Below are positions 21,790 to 60,242 of a DNA stretch of 64,000 nucleotides, piece after piece. The notes beneath the pieces were generated by a model that made no database searches, was not told the origin of the DNA, and saw only the letters and a list, made by a program, of their open reading frames with translations. Source of the DNA: Pseudomonadota bacterium (GTDB lineage Bacteria > Pseudomonadota > Alphaproteobacteria > Micavibrionales > Micavibrionaceae); the NCBI GenBank assembly GCA_029558635.1, contig JAKQEE010000258.1:1-64000 (forward strand). Reading direction: 5' to 3'. Both the position numbers and the translations under genes were made by a program. Within the stretch, counting starts at the first letter, position 1; each line of letters begins with the position of its first letter.

Positions 21790-22743
21790 TTATTTCAGTT
21801 TTTCAATGAGGGCGTCGATTTGTTCCGGTGTACCGACGCTTTCGCAGGCGACATCTTTTTCGATGCGTTTGACGAGGCCGGAGAGGACTTTGCCTGCGCC
21901 CAGTTCGATCATTTCAGTGACGCCTTGCTCTTTCATCCATGTGACAGATTCTCTCCAACGGACCATGCCAGTCACTTGTTCAACCAGCAATTTGCGAATG
22001 AGGTTCGGGTCGGTTGTGGCTTTGGCTGTGACGTTGGCAACCAGCGGAACAATTGGTGGTGCGATGACTGTGTCAGCCAATGCCTTTTCCATTGCATCGG
22101 CAGCGGGTTGCATCAGGCGGCAATGGAACGGGGCGCTCACAGGAAGCTGTACGGCACGTTTGGCGCCTTTTGCAGTAGCCAACTCCATAGCGATGGCCAC
22201 GGCGCCAGCGTGACCCGACACCACGATTTGACCTGGCGAGTTATCGTTGGCGGAGGCAACCATTTCGCCATTTTCGGTTTTGGTGTTGGCCTCGCGGGTG
22301 ATGGCTTCGACGTCGGGGAGGTCAAGGCCCAAAATAGCGGCCATCGCGCCAACTCCTACAGGGACGGCTTTTTGCATGCTTTGTCCGCGCAGTTTTAAAA
22401 GTTTGGCGGTAGTGTGGATTTCCAGCGACATGGCAGCAGTCAGGGCCGAATATTCACCCAGCGAATGGCCTGCGACAAAGTTGGATACTTCATGGAGGTT
22501 GATGTTTCCCTGTCCGACCAGCGTTCTGACCACGGCCATCGAGACAGCCATCAGGGCGGGTTGAGTGTTTTCGGTGAGGTTCAGATCCTGTTCCGATCCT
22601 TCGGTCATCAGTTTGAAGAGGTTTTGGTCCAAGGCATCGTCCACCATTTCGAACACTTCACGGGCTTCAAAGAAGGCTTCGGCCAGATCCTTGCCCATTC
22701 CGATGAATTGGGACCCTTGGCCCGGAAATATAAATGCGCGCAT
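21790..22743 (-). CDS. fabD: Malonyl-CoA:ACP transacylase
   Basis: MRAFIFPGQGSQ, GHSLGE active-site motif; start set at MRAF. Confidence 0.95.
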   Translation of the reverse strand: MRAFIFPGQGSQFIGMGKDLAEAFFEAREVFEMVDDALDQNLFKLMTEGSEQDLNLTENTQPALMAVSMAVVRTLVGQGNINLHEVSNFVAGHSLGEYSALTAAMSLEIHTTAKLLKLRGQSMQKAVPVGVGAMAAILGLDLPDVEAITREANTKTENGEMVASANDNSPGQIVVSGHAGAVAIAMELATAKGAKRAVQLPVSAPFHCRLMQPAADAMEKALADTVIAPPIVPLVANVTAKATTDPNLIRKLLVEQVTGMVRWRESVTWMKEQGVTEMIELGAGKVLSGLVKRIEKDVACESVGTPEQIDALIEKLK

Positions 22744-45905: not shown

Positions 45906-46547
45906 CTATTGGCTGACCCAGATAATCCGTGCAATCCAGCTGATCTCTCTGGTTTCGAAGCTGCGGTTCTCATGGTCGGGGTTTAAAGATCTGAGTTCGA
46001 TTTTTCCGGCCGTCTGGCGCAGCAGTTCTTTAGCCATGACTTCACCCGCAGATGTTTTGACCACCACTCGGTCACCGCGGCGGATGGCCGCATCGGGCGA
46101 TACAATCAGGCGGTCGCCTGATCGGAACAATGGCATCATGGAATCGCCAGCGACTTCGAGAGCGTAGTATTTTACGTTGCCCTGCTCGGGATAGGGGAAG
46201 TGGATGTGGTCCCAGCCTTCGCCAGTCGGATATCCCGCGTCGTCGAAATATCCTTCCTTGCCGGCCTGTGCATATCCGATCACGGGAATCTTCGGTTTGG
46301 CGACTGCGGAACCTTTTTCATCGCTGATCAATGCCACGAAATCAACCATCTGTGCACCTGTGGCATCGAGAATGCGGGCGACGCTTTCTGTCGAGGGCCA
46401 ACGGGGTTTGCCGTCGGGTCCGGTGCGCTTGCTGCGGTTGAAGGCTGTCGGGTCCAATCCGGCTTTCTTCGCGAGACCCGATGTCGAGTAGCCGCAAGAT
46501 TGCGCGAGACGGTCAATAGCCAGCCAGATGGTTTCGTGGGTTAACAT
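45906..46547 (-). CDS. S24-family (LexA/CI-like) transcriptional repressor, divergent to virion cluster
   Basis: HTH-like N-terminus; YAQAGKEG cleavage-type Ala-Gly; catalytic Ser (AGDSMMP) and Lys (VMAKELL). Confidence 0.88.
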   Translation of the reverse strand: MLTHETIWLAIDRLAQSCGYSTSGLAKKAGLDPTAFNRSKRTGPDGKPRWPSTESVARILDATGAQMVDFVALISDEKGSAVAKPKIPVIGYAQAGKEGYFDDAGYPTGEGWDHIHFPYPEQGNVKYYALEVAGDSMMPLFRSGDRLIVSPDAAIRRGDRVVVKTSAGEVMAKELLRQTAGKIELRSLNPDHENRSFETREISWIARIIWVSQ

Positions 46548-46573: not shown

Positions 46574-46587
46574 TCCTAGATATAGGA
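46574..46587. promoter_or_regulatory. Candidate operator palindrome
   Basis: TCCTA-gata-TAGGA in divergent intergenic region. Confidence 0.35.
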
Positions 46588-46606
46588 AAATAATCTTAAA
46601 AACTTC

Positions 46607-46635
46607 TTGACAAAGGGAGAAAACGCTGCCATAAA
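46607..46635 (+). promoter_or_regulatory. Sigma70-type promoter for the virion cluster
   Basis: TTGACA-17 nt-CATAAA. Confidence 0.65.
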
Positions 46636-46638
46636 CGA

Positions 46639-46653
46639 GAACATAAAGGGAAC
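46639..46653. promoter_or_regulatory. Candidate alphaproteobacterial LexA/SOS box
   Basis: GAACATAAAGGGAAC = GAAC-N7-GAAC, reverse complement of GTTC-N7-GTTC, just downstream of the -10. Confidence 0.5.
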
Positions 46654-46715: not shown

Positions 46716-47108
46716 ATGTCTTGTCCGTCTGCCTGTCACGAGGTGTCTCGCGACACTATGGTTCCTTTTGCCTCTGCCGAGGCTGCGTGGTTTTGGTTTG
46801 TGCAATCGCAAATGGCCCGTGCCGAAGGAGCCAAGATCGTGGCGGGTGCGGGTCTGTATCCGCGCCCTTGCGAACCGGTCGATATTTGCCGCGAAGTCGA
46901 GCGTCTCTATCGCGGACGGCGATTGGTGATCGACCATATCAAAGTCATGAGGCATTACGGTATGCGGATGATGTCGCCCGATCCGCGTCGTCCGAAGGAA
47001 GCGCGCGCCCATCATGTGTGGGTCGGGGCCATGAAGCGTCTGGAGGATGCTCTGGTTTTAAAGGGGATTGTCGATTCCAGTTTGTCATGGCGGGCGAACT
47101 GTGTCTGA
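46716..47108 (+). CDS. Hypothetical protein, first gene of phage-like cluster
   Basis: ORF MSCPSACHEVSRD..; co-directional with cluster. Confidence 0.7.
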   Translation: MSCPSACHEVSRDTMVPFASAEAAWFWFVQSQMARAEGAKIVAGAGLYPRPCEPVDICREVERLYRGRRLVIDHIKVMRHYGMRMMSPDPRRPKEARAHHVWVGAMKRLEDALVLKGIVDSSLSWRANCV

Positions 47109-47472
47109 AAAGGGTGATGTGGCGTTGGTCGTCTTTAGCGACCAGACAGATTTATGGTGGCTGAAATTCCTGCGGCGCGGGTTTCGTCACTGTTTTGTGG
47201 TGATCCGGATTAATGATCGCTGGATTGCGATTGATCCGATGGTGCATTTTTTAGAGATTTCTCTTCCTGATTTGCCGGAGGATTTTGATCTGGCGGGGTG
47301 GTTCCAGGGTAGTGGAATGAAGGTTGTGGAAACACAGATATTGTTTCCTGAACGGCGGATGTACCCGCCGTTTTTTTTATCGTGTGTCGAGGTTGTCAAG
47401 CGGGTTCTGGGTCTTCACCAGCCTTTCATTCTGACGCCTGCGCAATTGTATAAATTTTTAAACAAGAATTAG
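47101..47472 (+). CDS. Hypothetical; possible permuted papain/NlpC-like cysteine peptidase fold
   Basis: GTG start at 47101 overlapping upstream stop; His (RHCFVVI) then Cys (LSCVEVVKRVLGL). Confidence 0.55.
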   Translation: MSEKGDVALVVFSDQTDLWWLKFLRRGFRHCFVVIRINDRWIAIDPMVHFLEISLPDLPEDFDLAGWFQGSGMKVVETQILFPERRMYPPFFLSCVEVVKRVLGLHQPFILTPAQLYKFLNKN

Positions 47473-47484
47473 AGGAGAGTTCAT

Positions 47485-47736
47485 ATGGGTTCTTTAGTCT
47501 CAAAGCCGAAAGCGCCTAAGACAACCACAGTTGTCGTTAGCAAACCAGCAGTTACGACCACAAATAGTTCAAGTTCTACGACGACGGAGCCCGATCCGGT
47601 TGAAGTGGCCAGAGAGCGTGCCGAAAACGTTCTGCGTCGTAACCGCGGCGTGTGGGGGAATGTGTTGACCGGGTTTCGCGGCATTCTTTCGACCGGTGAC
47701 GGTGTGCCTCAACGCAAGACTTTGCTGGGAGAGTAA
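47485..47736 (+). CDS. Small phage-cluster protein
   Basis: GAGGAGAG RBS upstream; between phage genes. Confidence 0.65.
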   Translation: MGSLVSKPKAPKTTTVVVSKPAVTTTNSSSSTTTEPDPVEVARERAENVLRRNRGVWGNVLTGFRGILSTGDGVPQRKTLLGE

Positions 47737-47739
47737 GAG

Positions 47740-49230
47740 ATGATGGATAGTAAAAAAATGGATGTTCCCGAAATTATTGTCGGGCGTTTTGACGCAGCGC
47801 GGGCGCGACGGTCTAATTGGGAAGGGTTGTGGCAGGATTGTTACGATTATGCGCTTCCCTATCGTGGCGATTTTTCCGGATATTTTTCCGGTGGATCACG
47901 GCGCGGGGAAACCCTGTTTGATGCGACGGCGCCTGATGCTGTTGATCAATTGGCTTCGCTATTGCTTGGCTATTTAACGCCGCCTTTTACCCCATGGTTT
48001 GCGATCAAGGCTGGAACGGATTTATCCGATGAAGAAGCGGAAAAACTGGCTCCGCTGCTTGATAAAACGACGCGGACGATGCAGGCGCATTTTGACCAGT
48101 CGAATTTTCTGGTTGAGATTCACCAGTGTTTTCTCGATCTGGTCGTTGCGGGGACGGCATCTCTGGCGTTTGAAGAGGCTGGGGTGGGTGAAGCATCAGC
48201 ATTCCGTTTTGCGGCATTGCCTCTTAAGGATGTCTATTTTGAGGAAGGGAATCAGGGTGGACTTGATATTGTTTACCGCGTTTTGTCACTGAGTGATTCG
48301 AAAATTCTTTCAAGATACGCGCTTGAAGAATTACCGACCGATGTTCTGCATGGCAGCCGTGATGACCCGGACAGGAAGTTCAGGGTTATCGAGGCCGTGT
48401 TTCCGCTGGAAACAGAAGGCGGCTACGGTTTGGTGGTCTTTATGGACGAAAGCGGTGAGGTTCTGGTGACCGAGCGTCTTAGTCATTCGCCCTTTATTAA
48501 TTTCCGGTGGATGAAGACGCCCGGTGAGATTTACGGTCGTTCTCCGGTGATGAAATCCTTACCTGATATTAAAACAGCCAACAAAGTGGTCGAACTGATT
48601 TTAAAAAATGCGTCGATTGCGGTCACAGGCATTTGGCAGGCCGATGATGACGGAGTGGTCAATCCGGCCAATATCGAATTGGTTCCAGGGGCGATTATTC
48701 CGAAGGCGGTCGGGTCTAAGGGTTTGACACCGCTCGAGATGCCTGCGCGGTTTGATGTCTCGCAACTGGTTCTGGAGGATTTGCGCGGGCGCATCCGTCA
48801 TGCGCTGTTGGCCGACCGTTTGCCGTCACTTGGCGGAAAAAATGCGACGGCGACCGAGATTGTCGAGCGGTCTGGCGAGATGGCGTTGCTTCTTGGGGCG
48901 ACGTTCGGGCGATTGCAGGTCGAATTCTTGCATCCGCTGATTACGCGGGCTTACCAGATTTTGCGTCGTCGCGGAGTTGTTCCCGATTTGCCGCTCGATG
49001 GGCGGACGCTTGCCATCGAATATAGATCGCCGTTGGCGCGGGCGCAGGCGGGGCAGCACGTCCAGACGATGATGGGGTGGCTGAATACTGCCGGATCATT
49101 GGGTGCGGATGCCGTGTCCAGAATCGACCGTGGGGCTGTTCTTGATTATCTCGCCCGAGTCCTCGGTGTTCCTGCATCTTTTTTAATTCCAACAAAATCC
49201 GAAATTTCAACATTTGAAGGAGAAAAATAA
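47740..49230 (+). CDS. Podovirus-type portal / head-tail connector protein
   Basis: W..DCYDYALPYRGDFSGYFSGGSRRGETLFDATAPDAVDQLASLLLGYLTPPFTPWF characteristic of T7-like head-to-tail connectors. Confidence 0.9.
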   Translation: MMDSKKMDVPEIIVGRFDAARARRSNWEGLWQDCYDYALPYRGDFSGYFSGGSRRGETLFDATAPDAVDQLASLLLGYLTPPFTPWFAIKAGTDLSDEEAEKLAPLLDKTTRTMQAHFDQSNFLVEIHQCFLDLVVAGTASLAFEEAGVGEASAFRFAALPLKDVYFEEGNQGGLDIVYRVLSLSDSKILSRYALEELPTDVLHGSRDDPDRKFRVIEAVFPLETEGGYGLVVFMDESGEVLVTERLSHSPFINFRWMKTPGEIYGRSPVMKSLPDIKTANKVVELILKNASIAVTGIWQADDDGVVNPANIELVPGAIIPKAVGSKGLTPLEMPARFDVSQLVLEDLRGRIRHALLADRLPSLGGKNATATEIVERSGEMALLLGATFGRLQVEFLHPLITRAYQILRRRGVVPDLPLDGRTLAIEYRSPLARAQAGQHVQTMMGWLNTAGSLGADAVSRIDRGAVLDYLARVLGVPASFLIPTKSEISTFEGEK

Positions 49231-49949
49231 TGACTGATACTTATCTGACTGCCGAGCTCGAAAATGCTGGTGCTGCGGATCGTCCGCAAAATGTTCCAGC
49301 AAAATTTTGGGATGCTGAAAAGAAAGAAATCCGCATTGATGCGCTGCTGGGCTCCTATGCTGCTCTGGAAAAGAAATTGTCGGGTATGGTTCCTGAAACC
49401 GATCGTGGGAGGATGCTCAAATTGATAGGTGTTCCGGATACTCCTGAAGGGTATCAGGTCAATCTGCCTTGTGATTATCTTGAGGTTGATCCTGATCTTA
49501 ATGCCCGTCTGCATGGTAAAGGATTTACACCGGAACAGGTGCAGGAAGTTTATGATCTGGCCGCCGAGAAGCTGGTTCCGATGATTTTGCAAATGGCGGC
49601 AGAGTTTCAGGCTGAACGCGAGATCGAACGTTTGGTCGAATCTTTCGGCGGTGTTGAAAAATGGCGTGACATCTCCAAACAATTGCAAGAATATGGCGTG
49701 CGCTCTTTGCCTCTGCAGGCGTTCGAAGGGATGGCGTGTTCCTATGACGGGGTGATGGCGCTTTACAAGATGATGCAAAGCGAGTCCGGTTCTTCTGTGA
49801 AAATTCGTGGCGAGAGTTCTCCATCGGATCCGATGGATGAAAAGTCCCTGCGCAAGATGATGCAGGACCCTAGGTACTGGCGTGATCGCAATTCCGCCTT
49901 TATCGAGAAGGTGACGAAGGGTTTTGAGCGTTTGTATGGAGGTAAGTAA
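49230..49949 (+). CDS. Putative capsid scaffold/assembly protein
   Basis: Position between portal and capsid; PAKFWDAEKKEIRIDALLGSYAALEKKLS typical of phage scaffold N-termini. Confidence 0.7.
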   Translation: MTDTYLTAELENAGAADRPQNVPAKFWDAEKKEIRIDALLGSYAALEKKLSGMVPETDRGRMLKLIGVPDTPEGYQVNLPCDYLEVDPDLNARLHGKGFTPEQVQEVYDLAAEKLVPMILQMAAEFQAEREIERLVESFGGVEKWRDISKQLQEYGVRSLPLQAFEGMACSYDGVMALYKMMQSESGSSVKIRGESSPSDPMDEKSLRKMMQDPRYWRDRNSAFIEKVTKGFERLYGGK

Positions 49950-50348
49950 TTATGCTTGCGATCCGGCGAATTCGCGGGCGTTGAAATCGTCGATGACGTT
50001 CTGGAACGTTTTTCGGATGTCGCCGGTCAGCGGTTCGAATTGGAGCGAATAGCTTTCGGCCATTTTGCGGACGACTTTGGCGCGGTGTTTGACGTGGACC
50101 AGATGGTCGCGGAGGTGGAATTTCATCTCGACGTCCATTTCCTGTCCGACGCCCAGAGGACGCGGGTCACCGAACACTTTAACTCCGCCCGGACTCCAGT
50201 CGAGGATCGGGTGGGCTTTGCCGTCAATAAAGCCGATGCATTGGTCGCAGGATCGGCGCGGATGTGCGCGGCGGGATGTGAATCCGTTGCTACCATCGTC
50301 CGAGAGTGTTTTTTTGATTCCAATTGCTGACATAATGTTTTGCAGCAT
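49950..50348 (-). CDS. PilZ-domain protein (putative c-di-GMP receptor)
   Basis: RRAHPRR (RxxxR) and DWSPGG (D/NxSxxG) motifs; antisense within the virion cluster. Confidence 0.85.
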   Translation of the reverse strand: MLQNIMSAIGIKKTLSDDGSNGFTSRRAHPRRSCDQCIGFIDGKAHPILDWSPGGVKVFGDPRPLGVGQEMDVEMKFHLRDHLVHVKHRAKVVRKMAESYSLQFEPLTGDIRKTFQNVIDDFNAREFAGSQA

Positions 50349-50414
50349 ACAGATGCTCCTGTGTTCGTCCAGTAAAAGTTATTTGTATTCGTTCAGTTAC
50401 TTATAGACACACAG

Positions 50415-50444
50415 TTACGGAAACGCTTCCTCACATTTCCGTAA
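50415..50444. other. Perfect inverted repeat between pilZ and capsid genes
   Basis: TTACGGAAA-12 nt-TTTCCGTAA. Confidence 0.75.
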
Positions 50445-50471
50445 TTACCAACCGTCTCTAATATAGGGGTA

Positions 50472-50488
50472 TTGTAAAAAAATTACAA
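50472..50488. other. Short inverted repeat
   Basis: TTGTAA-aaaaa-TTACAA. Confidence 0.5.
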
Positions 50489-50658
50489 GTTTTCGATGCG
50501 TTCAGACTGTCGCACCCTTGTGGGCAGGCGGTCTGGATCGTCGCAGAGAACGAAGAGCCTTATCTTCGCCTGCACTTTACATGGTTCCGAATTGGCCGGA
50601 CTCCGACAACCAAACGGGATTTTTTCCTTTTAAACCAACAAATTAACAAGGAGTAACC

Positions 50659-51489
50659 ATGAGTACCGAACTCAACAAGGCGTTCGTCAAGCAGTTCGAA
50701 CGCGAAGTCCATGAAGCCTATCAGCGTCAGGGGTCCAAACTGCGCGGTGCGGTCCGTACAATTAACAATGTGAAAGGTTCAAGTGTTGTCTTCCAGAAAG
50801 TCGGCAAAGGAACTGCGTCCACCAAGTCCACCCACGGTATGGTTCCGGTGATGAATCTGTCCTATGCCTCGGTCGAATGTGCGTTGCAGGATTATTATGC
50901 CGGTGACTGGGTCGACAAATTCGATGAACTGAAAATCAACCATGATGAGCGTCAGGTGATTGCCAATGCTGGTGCCTATGCGCTGGGCCGCAAAACCGAC
51001 GAGTTGATTATTACAGCTTTGGCGACTGCATCAACCTATAGCATTGCCGATAGTAATACTGGCATGACTCTCGACAAGCTTTTGGGAGCATTTGAATTGC
51101 TGGGGGCGGCCAATGTGCCGGATGATGGCGGGCGTTTCGCTGTGATCGGTTGGAAGCAATGGAGTGAAATGCTCAAGATCCCTGAATTCGCTAGCAGTGA
51201 ATTCGTTGGTCCTGACGAGCTTCCCTATAAAGACACGCAGGCCAAGAAATGGCTCGGCACCACCTGGATTCCTCATTCGGGTTTGCCGATTAACGGTAGT
51301 GATATTCGTTCCTGTTTCTGGTTCCACCGTACCGCCATCGGTCATGCATCTGGTTCCGATGTCCAAACTGATGTCAGCTGGCATGGCGACCGTGCAGCGC
51401 ACTTCGTCAACAATATGATGAGCCAAGGCGCTTCCCTGATTGATCAGGAAGGTGTGGTTATCGTCAATTGTGACGAGACGCCTGACTAG
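50659..51489 (+). CDS. Major capsid protein
   Basis: Strong RBS (AAGGAG); KAFVKQFEREVHEAYQRQGSKLRGAVRTI..GSSVVFQKVGKGTAS phage capsid pattern. Confidence 0.88.
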   Translation: MSTELNKAFVKQFEREVHEAYQRQGSKLRGAVRTINNVKGSSVVFQKVGKGTASTKSTHGMVPVMNLSYASVECALQDYYAGDWVDKFDELKINHDERQVIANAGAYALGRKTDELIITALATASTYSIADSNTGMTLDKLLGAFELLGAANVPDDGGRFAVIGWKQWSEMLKIPEFASSEFVGPDELPYKDTQAKKWLGTTWIPHSGLPINGSDIRSCFWFHRTAIGHASGSDVQTDVSWHGDRAAHFVNNMMSQGASLIDQEGVVIVNCDETPD

Positions 51490-51595
51490 ATTTTCTTCGG
51501 ATTATAGCGGGAATGGCGGCGGGTGATGCCGCCATTTTCGTCTCAAAATCCTTTGAAACTCATTTTCTCAAAATTTATTTTATAGGAGTTTAAGT

Positions 51596-51838
51596 ATGTC
51601 TTTACAAAGCAAGGACCTCAGTGTGCTGGCCTATGCCAACAAATTCACTCTGTGGCATTACACGACGTTCGATTCGTCGGTTGTCACCACGGGTTATTTC
51701 AACAACGCGGCGTCGATGCTGCGCGTTAACGATCTGATTATCGTGAATATAGATACGGATGGCACACCGTCTACGGTGTTTTATATCGTCACTGCCAACA
51801 CGGGCTCGTCCGTGACGATAGCGGCCTTTACCGCCTGA
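51596..51838 (+). CDS. Small virion-cluster protein (possible head decoration)
   Basis: TAGGAG RBS; beta-rich 80 aa directly after capsid. Confidence 0.65.
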   Translation: MSLQSKDLSVLAYANKFTLWHYTTFDSSVVTTGYFNNAASMLRVNDLIIVNIDTDGTPSTVFYIVTANTGSSVTIAAFTA

Positions 51839-51889
51839 TCCCTCGCCCTTTGGTCAGGGGGGGCCGCTTTGATGGTCCGTACCGATGGG

Positions 51890-51923
51890 AGGTGGCCCAA
51901 GCTTTCGGGTCACCTCTTTTTTA
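51890..51923 (+). terminator. Intrinsic terminator inside virion operon
   Basis: GAGGTGgCCC-aagctttc-GGGtCACCTC followed by TTTTTT. Confidence 0.8.
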
Positions 51924-51931
51924 AGATTTGT

Positions 51932-51964
51932 TCCAATTAAAAACTGGAAATTTTTAATTGGAAG
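51932..51964. other. Perfect 13-bp inverted repeat
   Basis: TTCCAATTAAAAA-ctggaaa-TTTTTAATTGGAA. Confidence 0.9.
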
Positions 51965-52020
51965 TCCTCAGATGCCGGACAAGCTTCGGGCAAAGCCCGC
52001 CTCGCCTTGCTCGGTGCAAT

Positions 52021-52055
52021 TTTGAATAAGAATTAGAGAGGTTCTTATTCAAAAT
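52021..52055. other. Perfect 13-bp inverted repeat upstream of tail gene
   Basis: TTTTGAATAAGAA-ttagagagg-TTCTTATTCAAAA. Confidence 0.9.
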
Positions 52056-52081
52056 CACAATTTTTTTGAAAGGTTTTTATC

Positions 52082-52651
52082 ATGGCTTTGTCCGATATTG
52101 GTTTATGTTCGCGTGCGCTGGTCAAAATCGGTGCGCATCCGATTGCGTCCTTCTCGGACGGTACGGCCTCCTCTGAGATTGCGGGGCTTTTGTATGATTC
52201 CGTTCGTGATGCGGTTTTATCTTCCTATGGGTGGAGTTTTGCTACCGGACAGGTCACGCTGACACGGCTTACAACTGCGCCAGCGGCTGACTATCAATAT
52301 GCGTATCAATTGCCCAATGATTTCCTGCGTGCGATTTCCGCCGGATATCCTGCGCGCGGGAGGGGGCTTTCCTACCGTATTCAAGGAAGACAGCTTCATA
52401 TCAATGCCGAAGAGGTGTTGCTCACCTATATTTACCGTCCGGTTGAGGAAACATTTCCGCCCTATTTTGACATGGCGTTGATTGCGCGTCTGGCGGCTGA
52501 GTTTTGTATTCCATTGACTGAAAATGTATCGCGGTCTGAAGTTTTATCCAAACTTGCCGAACAGGAATTTACCCGTGCGCGCCAGATCGACGCGCAGCAG
52601 GATAGTCCAAACCGGATCGAGAGTTTTTCCTTAATTGATGCGAGGGAGTAA
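52082..52651 (+). CDS. Tail tubular protein A-like (gp11-type adaptor)
   Basis: ALSDIGLCSRALVKIGAHPIASFSDGT..A..LLYDSVRDAVLSSYGWSFA. Confidence 0.85.
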   Translation: MALSDIGLCSRALVKIGAHPIASFSDGTASSEIAGLLYDSVRDAVLSSYGWSFATGQVTLTRLTTAPAADYQYAYQLPNDFLRAISAGYPARGRGLSYRIQGRQLHINAEEVLLTYIYRPVEETFPPYFDMALIARLAAEFCIPLTENVSRSEVLSKLAEQEFTRARQIDAQQDSPNRIESFSLIDARE

Positions 52652-52653
52652 TC

Positions 52654-54549
52654 GTGAAAACCATTCAGATCAAAACAACGTTTACGGCCGGTGAAGTGTC
52701 TTCGGATCTGCTCGGGCGTGGGGATTTGCGTGCTTATGAGAACGGGGCGCTGAAACTCCGTAACGTCTTTATCCAGCCGACAGGAGGGATAAAGCGTCGT
52801 TCTGGGCTGCGGTATATTGATACGGCTGCCGGTGCGGGGCGTCTGATTTCGTTCGAGTTTAATACCGAGCAGACTTATTTGTTGGTTTTAACCGATCTCC
52901 AGATTGCGGTTTATGCGAATGGAGTGTTGCAAACAATGCTGGTTTCGCCATGGGCAGAAGCGGATCTGGCACAACTTGCCTGGACGCAATCAGCTGATAC
53001 GCTTCTTCTGGTCCATCCTGACTATCCGCCCAAGAAACTGACGCGTAGCGGTGGTGGAGTATGGGCGTTGGTCGACTGGGTGTTCTATTCCGAGACTAAT
53101 CGTATTCACCAGCCAATGTATAAGTTTGCGGATAGCGCCATTACCGTTACGCCGAGTGGAACCGGCGGGACCATTACATTGACGGCGTCTGCCTCAGTAT
53201 TCGAGGCCGGTCATGCGGGGACACGCTTGCGGGTTGGAAATAAGGAAGTTCAGGTCACTTCGGTTGATTCACCAACAGTTGTTACGGTTTCAGTTAAAGA
53301 AACTCTAGGTTCTACGTCGGCGACGGTGGATTGGGAAGAGCAGTCTTTTTCCCCCGTGCACGGTTATCCGGTGACTGTGGCGTTCCATCAGGATCGTTTG
53401 GTGATCGGCGGTTCGCAGGATTTGCCGAACCGATTGTGGTTTTCTCAATCGGGCGATTTGTTCAATTTCGATTTGGGGACAGGACTGGATGCCGAGGCGA
53501 TCGAGTTTGGGATTTTTTCGGATCAGGTCAATGCCATTCGCGGTGTGTTTTCGGGGAGACATCTGCAAGTATTTACAAGTGGTGCGGAATGGATGGTCAC
53601 GGGTGATCCGCTCACTCCGTCTACCGTCCAGATTAAACGCCAGACGCGGGTCGGGTCGCGGGTTGATCGCTATATTGCGCCTTTGGATGTTGACGGGGCA
53701 ACGTTGTTTGTGGCGCGTAACGGTCAGGAGCTTCGCGAGTTTGTTTATACAGATGTCGAGCAAGCTTATCAGTCAACCGATCTGGCACTCTTGTCGAAAC
53801 ATATTATTACCACGCCTGCTGATCAGGATTTTGATCAAAAGCGGCGCTTGTTGTTTCTGGTTCGTGAGGACGGGAAATTTGCAACGCTCACGGTGTTCCG
53901 AGCCGAGGAGGTGGCGGCATGGACTCTCCATGAGACGGCGGGCTCGATGCTCTCCGTCTGTGTTGCGGGTGATGTCGTCTATTTTCTAATCAACCGTGAC
54001 GGGGCTTACCTGATTGAGCAGATCGATGACGATCTTCATCTTGATTCTGCGTTAGCCGGAGAGAGCGGGACGCCTGCCAATGAGTGGAGTGGGCTTGGAC
54101 ATCTGGAAGGGAAAACCGTATCTGTCGTGGCCGATGGTCGTGTGCAGGCCGCTGAAATCGTAAGCAGTGGAGTGGTGACGCTTGATGGTGCGTATAGCAC
54201 TGTCCAGATCGGGTTGCCTTATACCCATTTGATCGAGCCTTTGCCTCCTGCCAATACGACAGATATCGGAGCCGCGCGGGCGGTCCGTCTGGTCGAGGCC
54301 ACGTTCCGTCTTAAAGAGACGGCGGCGTTACAACTCAATGTCGGGCGCGGGTTAAAAGATGTTTCGCTTCGTCAGTTGGGTGATGATGAAATTCTCGATG
54401 CGCCCGCGCCGCTTGTGTCGGGCGATATCCGCGTTCAGGCCTATGGATGGTCTTATGATACCAGCAAGCCTCTGTGGGTGATTGAACAGAGTTTGCCGTT
54501 ACCGTTTGCACTGTTGTCGGTGCAAATGAGTGTGATGGCTAATAGTTAG
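52654..54549 (+). CDS. Tail tubular protein B-like (gp12-type nozzle)
   Basis: TTFTAGEVSSDLLGRGDLRAYENGALKLRNVFIQPTGGIKRRSGLRYI; PVTVAFHQDRLVIGGSQDLPNRLWFSQSGD. Confidence 0.88.
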   Translation: MKTIQIKTTFTAGEVSSDLLGRGDLRAYENGALKLRNVFIQPTGGIKRRSGLRYIDTAAGAGRLISFEFNTEQTYLLVLTDLQIAVYANGVLQTMLVSPWAEADLAQLAWTQSADTLLLVHPDYPPKKLTRSGGGVWALVDWVFYSETNRIHQPMYKFADSAITVTPSGTGGTITLTASASVFEAGHAGTRLRVGNKEVQVTSVDSPTVVTVSVKETLGSTSATVDWEEQSFSPVHGYPVTVAFHQDRLVIGGSQDLPNRLWFSQSGDLFNFDLGTGLDAEAIEFGIFSDQVNAIRGVFSGRHLQVFTSGAEWMVTGDPLTPSTVQIKRQTRVGSRVDRYIAPLDVDGATLFVARNGQELREFVYTDVEQAYQSTDLALLSKHIITTPADQDFDQKRRLLFLVREDGKFATLTVFRAEEVAAWTLHETAGSMLSVCVAGDVVYFLINRDGAYLIEQIDDDLHLDSALAGESGTPANEWSGLGHLEGKTVSVVADGRVQAAEIVSSGVVTLDGAYSTVQIGLPYTHLIEPLPPANTTDIGAARAVRLVEATFRLKETAALQLNVGRGLKDVSLRQLGDDEILDAPAPLVSGDIRVQAYGWSYDTSKPLWVIEQSLPLPFALLSVQMSVMANS

Positions 54550-54570
54550 AAATTTCAAAAGGAGACGAAT

Positions 54571-55008
54571 ATGGGGACATTAACTTCGGTTTTGACGCCG
54601 ATTTTGAGTATTGGCAGTGCCTTAAGCGGTGCGCAGCGCGTGTCACAAGACAATCGCGAGAATGATTTGAGGCTTCGGCAATATGAGCAGAATGCGGCGC
54701 TTCATAAAAAGCAGAATTTGTTTGATTTGCAAAATGCCGAAACCGAACGGAGAACTAAATTAAAAAAACTGATCTCGGCACAACGCGCCCAGTTTGGCAG
54801 CGGTGGCATTCGCTCTGGCGCAGGTTCAAGTGAGGCTGTTCTGGAAGGACTGTTTTCGGATTCGGACATTGAACGTCAACAAGGCGAAGGTGATGTGGCG
54901 CTGGCCAACCAAAAAATCAATCAAGGGATTACGCAGCAGCGTCAACTCAATCTTTTGCAAAAAGAGCAGTTGCGCCAGAAAACCATTTTGAACACCCTGC
55001 TTAGCTAA
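54571..55008 (+). CDS. Putative internal virion protein
   Basis: Helical, LSGAQRVSQDNREN..RAQFGSGGIRSGAGS; position after the nozzle gene. Confidence 0.65.
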   Translation: MGTLTSVLTPILSIGSALSGAQRVSQDNRENDLRLRQYEQNAALHKKQNLFDLQNAETERRTKLKKLISAQRAQFGSGGIRSGAGSSEAVLEGLFSDSDIERQQGEGDVALANQKINQGITQQRQLNLLQKEQLRQKTILNTLLS

Positions 55009-55032
55009 TCCGCTTTTAAAAGGAATAAATTT

Positions 55033-57054
55033 ATGACCGAGCATATTAGAATGCCCGATGTGGTGCCGCTTGTGCGCTATCTGGCGAATGGCACGCAGAG
55101 CGTCTTTGAATATCCGTTTCCGATCTTTGCAAGTGAAGATCTGAAGGTTTTGTTTGATGGGGCGGAACAAATATCAGGATTTACGATTGATGGAGCCGGT
55201 GCAACTGCCGGCGGAACTGTAACGTTCGATGTTGCTCCTATTTCGGATGTTGTCGTGACGTTGGAACGGCGGATGGCGTTTGAACGGCTCACCGATTTTG
55301 TCGAAGGTGGCAATTTTGCGGCTGCGGCCATTAATGCCGAGCTTGATTTTCTGGTGGCGGGTCTTCAACAGGTTTCGCGTGACCAGATTCCGATGTTACG
55401 TTTCGATGAGGGGGAAGCGCCTTCGGTGACGTCTTTGCCTGCGCGGGATGTGCGGGCGGGGAAGGCACTCGGGTTTGACGGCAATGGCGACCCTGTGGCG
55501 GTGTCTTTAGCGGGCAGTATGGCTGCTCCTGATTTCACGGCTGTGGGGAATGGTGCGGTGACGCGCACTAACCATGACAAATTTTCCGATTTTGTATCGG
55601 TCAAGGATTTCGGCGCTGTGGGTGACGGTCTGACCGATGATACTTTGGCCTTTCAGCAGGCTTTGGCGGCGCACGATCATGTCTTTGTACCCAGTGGTGT
55701 TTACATTGTTACAGGGACGATTGCAGTCGGCGATGGGCAATCCTTGGCGGGGGCTGGTGATTCGTCAGAAATCAAAACATCGTCTTCGATTGTACTTGTT
55801 CACCTGACCGGTTCTTATGCGCGCTTGGCGACTCTGAAATTGTTCGGCGGGGATGTCGGGATCAAGCTTTCGGGGCTGTCTGGGCCGTGCGTTCAGAATG
55901 CGGTGGTGGACGTGTCAACATGGCAGGCACAGACGGGAATTTTGCTTGATGGCGGGTCTGATACAGGCAAGCCCTGTTACTGGAACAATTTTGTGCGGGT
56001 GTTGGTGGCTCAACCGTTTGTGAATGGCATTCACTTGAAACGAAGCGGAGCAGGGGATACGCCCAATGCCAACCGCTTTATGCAATGCCGTGTTTATTCT
56101 CTGGGGGCTACGACTTCGGGAAGCGGGATTTACATCGAAGAAGGGTCGTTCAACAACAGCTTTACCGATACGGAAGTCAATGTGAACGGAACGGCGCAGG
56201 CTTGTGTCAGATGTGGTGCTGGATCAAATAAGACGATTTTTGTGAATCTGTATTGTGAATCATCTAATTCAGTTCCAAATGTAAAACTTGATGCTGGATC
56301 AATCGAGACGGCTATTTACAATCTCTTGTCGGCTAGTGATGGTGCAGCGATTTGGGATTTGTCGGGTGGGCAGTATACGGCGTTCAATGCGGGGTATCCT
56401 TATAAAAACCGTTTGCAGAAAACGACTTGTACCGACCTAACGTCAACTTTGCAGCGCTATGATACTGAGTATATCGACGCAAGCGGGACGGTGACACTTG
56501 ATTTATCGCACTCTATCCATCTGGTGTCGTCTTATGGTGGCGCGTTGACGGTGCAGTTGCCCAATGCCGCCGATGCGGCGGCGGCGATGATGATGGTCAA
56601 GAAAATCGACACATCAAAAAACATTATCACCGTAACGGAATCAGGCGGAACAGGGCCGGATGATCGTTCCTATTATCTGGGCGGAGAAAACGATTTCGTG
56701 ATGATGATGTCGAACGGGGCGGAATGGTTTGTGATTTCAACCAACCGTTCGGCGGGGAATACACGCTATTACGACGGGTCGGGGACATATGATATCGACA
56801 TGGCGGTGGATGTGTATTTGTTGTCTTCCTATGGCGGGGTTTTGACGGCGAGGTTGCCGCCAGCCAATGCACCGGAAGCGATCGGGCGGATGGTCACAAT
56901 CAAGAAAACTGACGTATCGGCCAATCCTGTCATGGTTTCCGAGTTGGGTGGTTCGGGTCCGGACCAGTATACCCAATCGTTGACCTCACAATTTCAGTCG
57001 ATCACGGTCGTGTCCGATGGCGGGCATTGGTATATTGTCAGCCGCTTTTCTTAG
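55033..57054 (+). CDS. Tail fibre/tailspike with pectate-lyase-like beta-helix
   Basis: T7-like N-terminus (YLANGTQSVFEYPFPIFASEDLKV) then VSVKDFGAVGDGLTDDTLAFQQAL beta-helix motif. Confidence 0.88.
   Translation: MTEHIRMPDVVPLVRYLANGTQSVFEYPFPIFASEDLKVLFDGAEQISGFTIDGAGATAGGTVTFDVAPISDVVVTLERRMAFERLTDFVEGGNFAAAAINAELDFLVAGLQQVSRDQIPMLRFDEGEAPSVTSLPARDVRAGKALGFDGNGDPVAVSLAGSMAAPDFTAVGNGAVTRTNHDKFSDFVSVKDFGAVGDGLTDDTLAFQQALAAHDHVFVPSGVYIVTGTIAVGDGQSLAGAGDSSEIKTSSSIVLVHLTGSYARLATLKLFGGDVGIKLSGLSGPCVQNAVVDVSTWQAQTGILLDGGSDTGKPCYWNNFVRVLVAQPFVNGIHLKRSGAGDTPNANRFMQCRVYSLGATTSGSGIYIEEGSFNNSFTDTEVNVNGTAQACVRCGAGSNKTIFVNLYCESSNSVPNVKLDAGSIETAIYNLLSASDGAAIWDLSGGQYTAFNAGYPYKNRLQKTTCTDLTSTLQRYDTEYIDASGTVTLDLSHSIHLVSSYGGALTVQLPNAADAAAAMMMVKKIDTSKNIITVTESGGTGPDDRSYYLGGENDFVMMMSNGAEWFVISTNRSAGNTRYYDGSGTYDIDMAVDVYLLSSYGGVLTARLPPANAPEAIGRMVTIKKTDVSANPVMVSELGGSGPDQYTQSLTSQFQSITVVSDGGHWYIVSRFS
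56458..57051 (+). repeat. Two tandem ~100-aa C-terminal tailspike modules
   Basis: (HSIHLVSSYGGALTVQLP..VKKIDTSKNIITVTESGGTGPD) vs (VDVYLLSSYGGVLTARLP..IKKTDVSANPVMVSELGGSGPD). Confidence 0.8.
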
Positions 57055-57109
57055 ATTTTTGGTTTTTTTCCGACTCAAAACTCGTTGAAAAGATGAACAG
57101 GGGAATGTT

Positions 57110-57439
57110 TTGAAATCTATTACAATTGAAGAGACCACGCGGGCGCAGGTGGCGGAATTCCTGCCGCGCGCTATATCCAAGGCTTTGCAGTCTTACCACG
57201 AATTTATGGAAGGGACCGCGTTTGGTGAGGAAGCTAAAGAGTTTTCCGATGCGCATAAGGCGGCGAAAGTCGCCATTTCGCATATCGAGCTTTTGATCAA
57301 GCTTGCGAAATGGGCTGACCTGCCGGATGCGGCGATTGAAAGCAAAGGGGAGTTGGATGAATTCTCGAATCTTATGAATCGCGCTGAAGGTGATGTCAAA
57401 GATTATTACGCCCACAGGGTTGAAGGTGATGACGAATAA
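57110..57439 (+). CDS. Small helical protein preceding terL (TerS candidate)
   Basis: TTG start with GGGGA upstream; directly upstream of terL. Confidence 0.5.
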   Translation: MKSITIEETTRAQVAEFLPRAISKALQSYHEFMEGTAFGEEAKEFSDAHKAAKVAISHIELLIKLAKWADLPDAAIESKGELDEFSNLMNRAEGDVKDYYAHRVEGDDE

Positions 57440-57441
57440 AA

Positions 57442-58923
57442 ATGGTTTCAAGAGACTGTGGATTTCCGCTTTTCGTGGCGCTGTGGAACAGGGTACAAGG
57501 CCTGTCGACCCCGGCGGTGCATTTCGTGATCGCGGCGTTTTTAGAGACGAGTTGGGAGCGCGGGGACAGGCGGCTGTTGCTGATGGCATTCCGTGCGTGC
57601 GGGAAATCGACACTTGTTGGTCTGTTTTGCGTTTGGCTTTTGTTAAAGTCACCTGACGTTCGGATACTGGTTTTATCTGCCGATCTGCCGCTGGCCAAAA
57701 AGATGGTGCGAAATGCCAAGCGGATACTGGAAAAGCATCCACTCACACGGCATTTGAAACCTGCAGCGCTTGATCAGTGGGCAAGTGACCGGTTTACGGT
57801 GAACCGCGAGACAGAACTTCGCGACCCGTCGATGCTGGCCAAGGGGATTATGAGCAACCTGACGGGGACACGTGCTGATGTGGTGATCTGTGATGATGTC
57901 GAGGTGCCTAAAACTAGCGATACGTCCGGGAAACGCGCATTTCTGCGCGAGAGGTTGTTGGAACTGGATTATATTCTGACACCCGATGGAACGCAGTTAT
58001 ATGTCGGGACGCCGCATTGTTTCCACTCGATTTATGCGGAGAAACCTTTGGGCGAATATGGGGAGGCCCAGATTTTTCTCGAAGGTTTTTTGCGGATGGT
58101 GTTGCCTGTTTTAAACGCGCGGGGTGAGAGTGTGTGGCCCGAACGGTTTCCATTGGAGAAAATCCGTGCGATTGAAAAACGCACGGGTCCTGCGCATTTC
58201 AAAAGCCAGATGATGTGCGAGATTTTCAATATTGCGGACGGGTATTTTTCGGCTGACCAGCTTGGGATTTATCAAAAGATTATTGATTATCGCGAGGCGA
58301 ACGGGCGGCCTGTGCTTGAAATTGGCGGGCGGAAGATGGTGTCTGTTTCGGCGTGGTGGGACCCGTCTTTCGGTAAAGACGGTGGTGACCGCAGTATATT
58401 GGCGATTGTCTATACTGATGAGGACGGGGAATATTTCCTTCATCATCTGGAGCAAATCAAAACCGATGCGAAGAGTAAGGACGATGAAGCTACGCAGCAA
58501 TGTAAACAAGTGGCAGAGTTGGCAGCGCGGTTTTATTTGCCGTCTATAGCTCTTGAAACCAACGGGATTGGCAAGTTTCTGCCAGGAATTTTGCGTCGGG
58601 AGCTGGCGGCGATGAGATTGACTTGCGCGGTGTGTGAGATCACGTCGAACAAGCCTAAGGCTGTGCGTATTCTGGAATCTCTGGATGCGGTGATGGCGGC
58701 ACGGGCGCTCCATATTCACGGATCGGTTCTCAGGACGCCGTTTTTATCCGAGCTTGAGGATTGGCGGCCCACGGGCAATCGGGGACATGACGATTGTCTG
58801 GATGCGGTGGCAGGAGCGATTTCGTTAGAGCCGGTGCGGATCAAACGTGTGATGACGGGTAGAGGAGCTGCATCATGGCGCGGGGTGCAGCCGCATACGG
58901 CGCAAAGTGAGTTTGAGGTTTAG
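57442..58923 (+). CDS. Terminase large subunit
   Basis: Walker A-like AFRACGKST, Walker B VVICDDVE, nuclease motifs WWDPSFGKDGGDRS and DDCLDAVAGA. Confidence 0.9.
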   Translation: MVSRDCGFPLFVALWNRVQGLSTPAVHFVIAAFLETSWERGDRRLLLMAFRACGKSTLVGLFCVWLLLKSPDVRILVLSADLPLAKKMVRNAKRILEKHPLTRHLKPAALDQWASDRFTVNRETELRDPSMLAKGIMSNLTGTRADVVICDDVEVPKTSDTSGKRAFLRERLLELDYILTPDGTQLYVGTPHCFHSIYAEKPLGEYGEAQIFLEGFLRMVLPVLNARGESVWPERFPLEKIRAIEKRTGPAHFKSQMMCEIFNIADGYFSADQLGIYQKIIDYREANGRPVLEIGGRKMVSVSAWWDPSFGKDGGDRSILAIVYTDEDGEYFLHHLEQIKTDAKSKDDEATQQCKQVAELAARFYLPSIALETNGIGKFLPGILRRELAAMRLTCAVCEITSNKPKAVRILESLDAVMAARALHIHGSVLRTPFLSELEDWRPTGNRGHDDCLDAVAGAISLEPVRIKRVMTGRGAASWRGVQPHTAQSEFEV

Positions 58924-58934
58924 GAAACAATAAA

Positions 58935-59180
58935 ATGACTGATTTTTTGGATGCGTTCGGGTGGTGGATTGCGGTGATCGAATTGCCTGTGTTGTCGGCC
59001 TTGTTCTGGATGATCCAGCATTTAAGAGACGATCTTGCCAACCACAGGCTGGAGGTCGCAAAGAATTATGCGCAGGTGCAGGATTTGCGGTTGCTGGAAA
59101 ACCGTATCACGTCGCATTTGCTGCGGATCGAAGCCAAGCTCGATGTTACGGCGCTTAAAGCCGAGAAAAATTCCCAATAG
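58935..59180 (+). CDS. Small membrane-anchored phage protein (lysis/spanin-holin region)
   Basis: N-terminal TM plus coiled coil. Confidence 0.6.
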   Translation: MTDFLDAFGWWIAVIELPVLSALFWMIQHLRDDLANHRLEVAKNYAQVQDLRLLENRITSHLLRIEAKLDVTALKAEKNSQ

Positions 59181-59192
59181 AAAGGATTAATC

Positions 59193-59675
59193 ATGGATAA
59201 ACCGAAATTGACACCGGTGCCCAAAGAGGCAGCGGACGAGAACGCACGTGAATTTTATAAGGAAATGGAAGTTGATATTCTGGCGCGGACCATTTGGGGC
59301 GAGGCCCGCGGTGAAGGGAAGACAGGGATGGAGGCCGTGGCGATGGTTATTCTCAACCGTGCGACAGTAGCGCAGGCGCGCGGCGGGTACTGGTGGGGGA
59401 ATTCTGTAATCGAGGTTTGTCAAAAACCTTATCAGTTTTCCTGTTGGAACAAGGAAGATCCGAATTACCGGAAGCTGATTTCAGTGAATGACAGTGATGT
59501 TTATTTTGCAACGGCACAGCGTGTGGCTCGGCGGGCCTTGCTTGGGTTTCTAAAGGATTCGACTTACGGGGCAACGCATTATCATGCGCGTCATGCCTCG
59601 CCGTCATGGACCAAGGGGCAGCGTCCGTGTGCGGTGATTGGTCGTCACATTTTCTATCATCTGGCGGAGGGATAG
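59193..59675 (+). CDS. SleB-like cell wall hydrolase (endolysin)
   Basis: LARTIWGEARGEGKTGMEAVAMVILNR..SCWN..ATHYHA. Confidence 0.88.
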   Translation: MDKPKLTPVPKEAADENAREFYKEMEVDILARTIWGEARGEGKTGMEAVAMVILNRATVAQARGGYWWGNSVIEVCQKPYQFSCWNKEDPNYRKLISVNDSDVYFATAQRVARRALLGFLKDSTYGATHYHARHASPSWTKGQRPCAVIGRHIFYHLAEG

Positions 59676-59678
59676 CAC

Positions 59679-60242
59679 ATGGCGTTGCCTGTTTTGGCGC
59701 AAATCGGCATTCCGGTTCTGGTTAAGGGGCTGGCGGAGGGGTTGGCGCAGCTTAAATCCCCCGTGGCGCAAGGGGCTTCAGCTGCTCTTGCGGAGTTGGG
59801 GGATGCGTTTGGCAATGGTCTGGTGTCTCCAGAACAGATGGCCGAACTCAACCGCCATCTTGAAAAAGTTCAGGAGATTGAAGCGTCCGAGCGACAAAAT
59901 TCGATCCAGCAGATCAATGAAAGTCTCAGGGCCGAAGTTGCGTCGAGTGACCCTTATGTGCGACGGATGCGGCCGACCTTCGGTTATATCATCGCGACAA
60001 CGTGGGGTGCGCAGATGTTTGCCTTAGCCTATATCATTGTGTTTGAAACGTCGCAGGCGGCGCTTGTGATTGATGCGATGGAAAAGCTTGGCACGATCTG
60101 GGCGGTCGGTTTGTCGGTCCTCGGGATTTATGTGTACAAACGTAGTGAGGAAAAGAAGTTGTCGTCGCCTGTACTTCAAGCCAAGGAGGAAATTGTTGCT
60201 CCTGCCGCACCTCCGGTTAAACAACCAAAATATAATGAATAG
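59679..60242 (+). CDS. Holin of the 3TM GTA-type family
   Basis: SDPYVRRMRPTFGYIIATTWGAQ..IWAVGLSVLGIYVYKRSEEKK. Confidence 0.8.
   Translation: MALPVLAQIGIPVLVKGLAEGLAQLKSPVAQGASAALAELGDAFGNGLVSPEQMAELNRHLEKVQEIEASERQNSIQQINESLRAEVASSDPYVRRMRPTFGYIIATTWGAQMFALAYIIVFETSQAALVIDAMEKLGTIWAVGLSVLGIYVYKRSEEKKLSSPVLQAKEEIVAPAAPPVKQPKYNE

Follow-up and report, generated by a model that had tools for sequence, protein, structure and literature searches.

What does the SOS-box-like motif at the promoter of a virion gene cluster in a Micavibrionaceae genome do: is it a functional LexA box, and what kind of particle would it control? The window, that is, the whole stretch of 64,000 nucleotides analyzed here (contig JAKQEE010000258.1), contains the cluster and its divergent repressor gene (Table 1). 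An earlier note on this DNA had placed the motif immediately after a TTGACA-N17-CATAAA promoter, and the sequence of positions 46607–46653 confirms this, with GAACATAAAGGGAAC lying shortly 3' of CATAAA, at 46639–46653. Its reverse complement, GTTCCCTTTATGTTC, reads GTTC-N7-GTTC, as the note had stated, and this direct repeat is the LexA box of the Alphaproteobacteria (PMC8565304).

Table 1. Predicted features of the promoter region and the virion cluster in the 64,000-nucleotide window.
Feature	Position	Strand	Basis
RogA/cI-like repressor, 213 aa, S24 autopeptidase domain	45906..46547	-	PF00717, E 2.6e-22; PHROG transcriptional repressor
Predicted RogA-type operator TAGGAAAATAATCTTA, a GGA-N6-TCC palindrome in degenerate form, shortly before -35	46583..46598		Aligned block
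Predicted sigma-70-type promoter of the virion cluster, TTGACA-N17-CATAAA	46607..46635	+	Sequence; TTGAC kept in nearly all orthologous regions
-35 element TTGACA, followed by a 17-base spacer	46607..46612		Sequence
-10 element CATAAA	46630..46635		Sequence
Predicted LexA (SOS) box GTTCCCTTTATGTTC over the expected transcription start	46639..46653	-	Motif, matrix, conservation
Gene 1 (130 aa), conserved, without a family	46716..47108	+	dN/dS 0.03 in close pair
Gene 2, conserved, no family	47068..47472	+	Profile search, synteny
Gene 3, 83 aa, conserved	47485..47736	+	Profile search, synteny
Portal (T7-like head-tail connector)	47740..49230	+	PF12236, E 7.6e-132
Capsid assembly/scaffold protein, T7 type	49230..49949	+	PF05396, E 1.2e-10
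PilZ-domain protein, between scaffold and capsid genes	49950..50348	-	PF07238, E 8.6e-7
Possible RogA-type operator GGAAACGCTTCC, between PilZ and capsid genes	50419..50430		Weak for the window; not kept in own genus
Major capsid protein	50659..51489	+	PF19821, E 5.9e-82
Tail tubular protein A	52082..52651	+	phrog_394
Tail tubular protein B	52654..54549	+	phrog_376
Tail spike/fibre	55033..57054	+	PHROG match; PF12708
Large terminase, T7 type	57442..58923	+	NF033889, E 2e-125; phrog_38
Cell-wall hydrolase (lysis)	59193..59675	+	PF07486, E 8.6e-20
GTA_holin_3TM holin (lysis)	59679..60242	+	PF11351, E 7.2e-10

The simplest explanation of the box is a chance match of an 8-base pattern, with no function, and the bare counts are compatible with this. 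Three sites are found in the window, compared with 2.62 expected from shuffles, which agrees with the caveat, already raised in the earlier note, of about two chance matches per 64 kb, and the genome as a whole contains 64 + 66 matches, against 52 + 58 for the reversed control pattern. As these totals are close to chance in both the window and the genome, the pattern by itself provides little or no evidence, and its count was dropped as an argument for the box. The other two sites in the window, at 22579 and 28323, rank 43 and 101 among the 103 sites listed in the matrix ranking described below, and were rejected as LexA boxes, given that they look like chance matches. The features of the window box that do exceed chance are its AT-rich core, its position, and its conservation. 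The position had initially been considered the main support, and it now shares this role with the other two.

Conservation was assessed in orthologous loci, located via the portal gene, which has a match in 43 of 58 related genomes (37 of the 45 of good quality) and in 29 public contigs, including Micavibrio and Rhodospirillales records. Within the order, 29 of the 36 orthologous upstream regions contain a perfect box, with strand and place unchanged throughout, compared with a mean of 0.135 (maximum 2) in the shuffled controls, while spacers of other lengths (3–6 or 8–12 bases) return 0–2 matches in these 36 regions. The offset of the box from TTGAC is 29–33 bases in 26 of 27 loci, and at this fixed distance, the box overlies the expected transcription start. 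In two further genomes (G052 and G049), the box falls outside the scanned region only through the estimated gene start, and in another (G019), the upstream region has a box with one mismatch, while G023 and G027 keep the cluster with no recognizable box upstream. Most loci beyond the order lack the box, although three (L048, L050, and L056) have possible sites. The conservation of sequence, strand, and offset over many genera, together with the matrix rank of the box, refutes the chance match, which retains almost no credibility. The pattern suggests that the whole order—the relatives of Micavibrio—keeps an SOS switch together with the virus-derived cluster, through which damage would turn on a particle similar to a gene transfer agent (GTA).

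The clade also shares the LexA consensus assumed in the initial reading of the motif. Among the relatives, a perfect GTTC-N7-GTTC box is found upstream of recA in 20 of 30 genomes, and upstream of lexA in 23 of 31. In the genome of the window, lexA and recA, which are both located on one 780-kb contig, each have a one-mismatch box upstream, and dinB, which encodes a Y-family polymerase, is directly preceded by two perfect boxes, GTTCTCTTTATGTTC and GTTCCTTATTTGTTC, the first of which differs from the window box by a single base. When 103 listed sites, of the approximately 130 GTTC-N7-GTTC sites in the genome, were ranked by a matrix built solely from the recA and lexA boxes of the relatives, the window box came sixth, preceded by the dinB pair, the two sites at a virion-like gene located elsewhere, and one site between nth and xseB. 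In the light of these comparisons, the most plausible identity of positions 46639–46653 is a genuine LexA box, predicted to cover the start of transcription. This box resembles the published alphaproteobacterial box in its motif, spacing, occurrence at lexA, recA, and dinB, and position over a promoter, and differs in serving a domesticated virion cluster from a fixed place approximately 32 bases from TTGAC (PMC8565304).

The box is flanked by the gene of the divergent repressor, in which a conserved N-terminal DNA-binding region is followed by an S24 domain that retains Ser136, Lys173, and the Ala-Gly site. In the relatives, the N-terminal region is near-invariant, and the S24 domain may be degenerate or missing, or have been replaced, in seven genera, by an orotate phosphoribosyltransferase-like domain. 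Repressors of the S24 type usually bind beside their own gene, and as this one is conserved and adjoins the box, the box might be its operator, rather than that of LexA. This is very improbable, considering that the same motif is also found at lexA, recA, and dinB, and that a different palindrome, GGA-N6-TCC, is enriched at the repressor, the capsid promoter, and the distant virion-like gene, and fits the GGAA-N4-TTCC inverted repeat bound by RogA (PMC9632790). The LexA box also persists in loci in which the S24 domain has been lost or replaced, and is thus independent of this domain. A strict complementarity between the LexA box and the S24 catalytic residues was not found, and several Rhodospirillales loci have neither.

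Perfect GGA-N6-TCC palindromes are present in 20 of the 36 orthologous promoter regions (shuffle mean 0.72; at most 4 for any other spacing), although in the genus of the window, the main promoter has the degenerate form only. The intergenic regions upstream of the capsid gene contain this palindrome in 12 of 25 orthologous loci (shuffle mean 1.2), and no LexA box was found at the capsid promoter in any of the 25. As the capsid gene of the relatives is served by a promoter of its own, which bears an S24-type operator but lacks a LexA box, direct control by LexA is probably limited to the first five genes of the cluster. The proposal that LexA represses the operon is thus supported by the conserved box and the consensus common to the clade, and narrowed in its reach. 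Neither is the box the sole control, because a divergent S24 repressor, with separate operators, lies beside it.

The LexA-repressed set appears to extend to a gene that lies far from the cluster. This gene (G000:C328:112128-112460; L022:2129-2464) encodes a 111-aa virion-like protein, has two LexA boxes upstream, and is present in 38 of 58 genomes, largely those with the cluster. The protein has no Pfam or PHROGs family and no phage DNA match. A structure prediction (pLDDT 88) gave a fold similar to those of small, uncharacterised proteins of phages (E 4.5e-9). In 30 upstream regions, which come from related genomes and are not independent, the LexA box is found in 14, GGA-N6-TCC in 11 (one of which, GC-rich throughout its palindrome, could be a chance match), both in none, and neither in five. 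The occurrence of one operator or the other, never both, ties the distant gene and the cluster into a single regulon, and makes GGA-N6-TCC the likely binding site of the divergent repressor. LexA would thus probably control the first five genes of the cluster and, in the genus of the window, the distant gene, as read from the operators.

The nature of the cluster itself can be read from its gene content. Together, the predicted products make up a conserved module of the T7-like type, with capsid, short tail, terminase, and lysis proteins, which is GTA-like and lies outside the RcGTA family. Over 46716–60242, virion, packaging, and lysis genes are found without genes for replication or integration, which is the combination expected of a GTA in the functional sense. 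The PilZ gene, of the c-di-GMP receptor type, has a similar counterpart adjoining the capsid gene in the relatives.

SOS boxes are common on prophage promoters, and the structural genes resemble those of T7-like phages, so that an ordinary SOS-inducible prophage, without domestication, deserves consideration. This is improbable, given that no replication, polymerase, or integrase genes were seen among the annotated cluster genes, and that the cluster is nearly always single-copy in the 43 of 58 relatives that carry it, with its synteny kept through the order. The distances between the cluster proteins also track those of RecA (Mantel r 0.45–0.69, p ≤ 0.002). The known phages are distant, with a portal identity of about 34% or less in named isolates, and of at most about 31% in the terminases among the matches listed. 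The one closer portal (52.5% identical; MT838907.1:3268-4755) comes from an uncharacterised 5-kb faecal record, labeled "Bacteriophage sp.", possibly a piece of the genome of a Micavibrio-like host that was deposited as phage sequence.

A particle that kills, or serves some other purpose that involves no transfer of DNA (a bacteriocin with a capsid, or a defensive particle), would account for the presence of host-lysis genes and a spike. This is rather unlikely, since a full set of capsid, portal, and terminase genes is under purifying selection (dN/dS of 0.03–0.125 in a close pair, which is strong), and these genes would be superfluous in a DNA-free tail particle. The GTA-like particle is the product most consistent with this gene content.

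The history of the cluster is less regular at the level of single genes. The RecA and portal trees, both of which have limited signal, have 5 of 20 splits in common, and some horizontal movement of the cluster may have occurred. The portal genes of three genomes (G001, G009, and G010) contain in-frame stops, and those of three others (G006, G008, and G018) are split, through either decay or assembly errors. The bin of the window genome is a draft of 3.65 Mb with 5.9% contamination, in which the contigs used here are large, and its contamination and size, compared with approximately 2 Mb in the relatives, indicate that it contains foreign contigs. A second recA (G000:C213:7995-8777) is found on a 17.7-kb contig, and another contig of this bin, of 3.6 kb, carries a second, distant portal gene (G000:C20:463-1863; 27% identity), which may derive from a genuine phage or from contamination.

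Taken together, the favored reading, to which we assign a probability of about 0.82, is that of a functional LexA box, released by damage, on a domesticated podovirus-type particle cluster with a second, RogA/cI-like repressor and a GTA-like product. LexA, bound at about -4 to +11, would block the initiation of transcription by RNA polymerase at the first promoter of the cluster. Following DNA damage, RecA filaments would provoke the self-cleavage of LexA, releasing the first transcript, which would include the three small genes, the portal, and the scaffold. The divergent repressor would act as a second lock, binding separate palindromes next to the -35 element; in the relatives, it would also sit at the capsid promoter and the distant virion-like gene. 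In the genus of the window, the residues needed for RecA-stimulated self-cleavage are mostly retained in this repressor, and a single signal may therefore open both locks. The particle, most likely GTA-like, would be freed by the holin and the lysin, and we infer its assembly, lysis, and transfer of host DNA from the gene content. A more specific proposal has roughly even odds: an independently domesticated podovirus-derived GTA of the Micavibrionales and related Alphaproteobacteria, placed directly under SOS control by LexA and a RogA-type repressor capable of self-cleavage, and including a dispersed virion gene that has alternated between these two repressors over evolutionary time.

The closest regulatory parallel is RogA (CCNA_00080) of Caulobacter crescentus, a LexA-like repressor of GTA activators that has 213 aa, lacks catalytic residues, and binds GGAA-N4-TTCC inverted repeats (PMC9632790). 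Likened through this published description, the window repressor agrees in its length, its S24 domain, and its probable work on a particle cluster, and the RogA operator corresponds to the GGA-N6-TCC of the Micavibrionales loci. RogA represses the activators gafYZ (PMC9632790), whereas the window repressor adjoins the cluster itself and keeps its Ser and Lys, residues that are variable in its relatives, several of which, unlike RogA, lose the S24 domain or carry the orotate phosphoribosyltransferase-like fusion.

Among the recognized GTAs, RcGTA, CcGTA, and related GTAs (Rhodogtaviriformidae and Bartogtaviriformidae; PMC9662315) resemble the window locus, whose structural cluster also appears to have been kept for long, in their dispersed accessory gene, lysis genes, and alphaproteobacterial host, and differ in that the window cluster is a T7-like short-tail module. 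Their marker, GTA_TIM (PF13547), is absent from all 58 genomes, while the Caulobacter control was positive. A LexA site has been predicted in silico at the promoter of the GTA cluster of Dinoroseobacter shibae (PMC6473078), although this is an RcGTA-type cluster, and a single-species prediction without comparable comparative support. FpGTA, of the human gut commensal Faecalibacterium, is a podovirus-like GTA-like element described as the first with that morphology (PMC12946183), in a host outside the Alphaproteobacteria. In the window, the predicted SOS control would act on a short-tailed module, alongside a RogA-like co-repressor. In the literature searched, no report of a GTA or prophage cluster of Micavibrio, or of its regulation, was found, and the words capsid, SOS, and LexA are absent from the Micavibrio ARL-13 genome paper.

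The natural triggers of gene transfer agents are an open question, on which the conserved LexA box has a bearing; in Caulobacter, DNA damage has been named as a candidate trigger, though not shown to be one (PMC9632790). With a LexA box kept throughout the order where transcription of a cluster of viral origin is expected to start, a direct link from damage to particle becomes testable with mitomycin. If the favored reading is true, the order of Micavibrio would harbor a podovirus-type GTA-like lineage beyond the recognized GTA families, and the distant gene would offer an example, from nature, of a gene that changes from one damage-related repressor to another.

Some minor observations concern other sites of the two operator types, and the fused repressors. 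The strong LexA-like box between nth and xseB (G000:C68:246460-246474) lies at the 3' end of nth, approximately 100 bases upstream of an xseB-like gene (exonuclease VII small subunit), which is followed by a polyprenyl synthetase gene. In two relatives, GGA-N6-TCC is found near genes of peptidoglycan-binding-domain-like proteins (L237, L243, L262, and L265). In seven loci (L096, L098, L099, L101, L104, L109, and L116), the N-terminus of the repressor is fused in one frame to the orotate phosphoribosyltransferase-like domain, forming proteins of 303–313 aa, and these fusions are the best pyrE match of their genomes, while elsewhere, pyrE adjoins the cluster.
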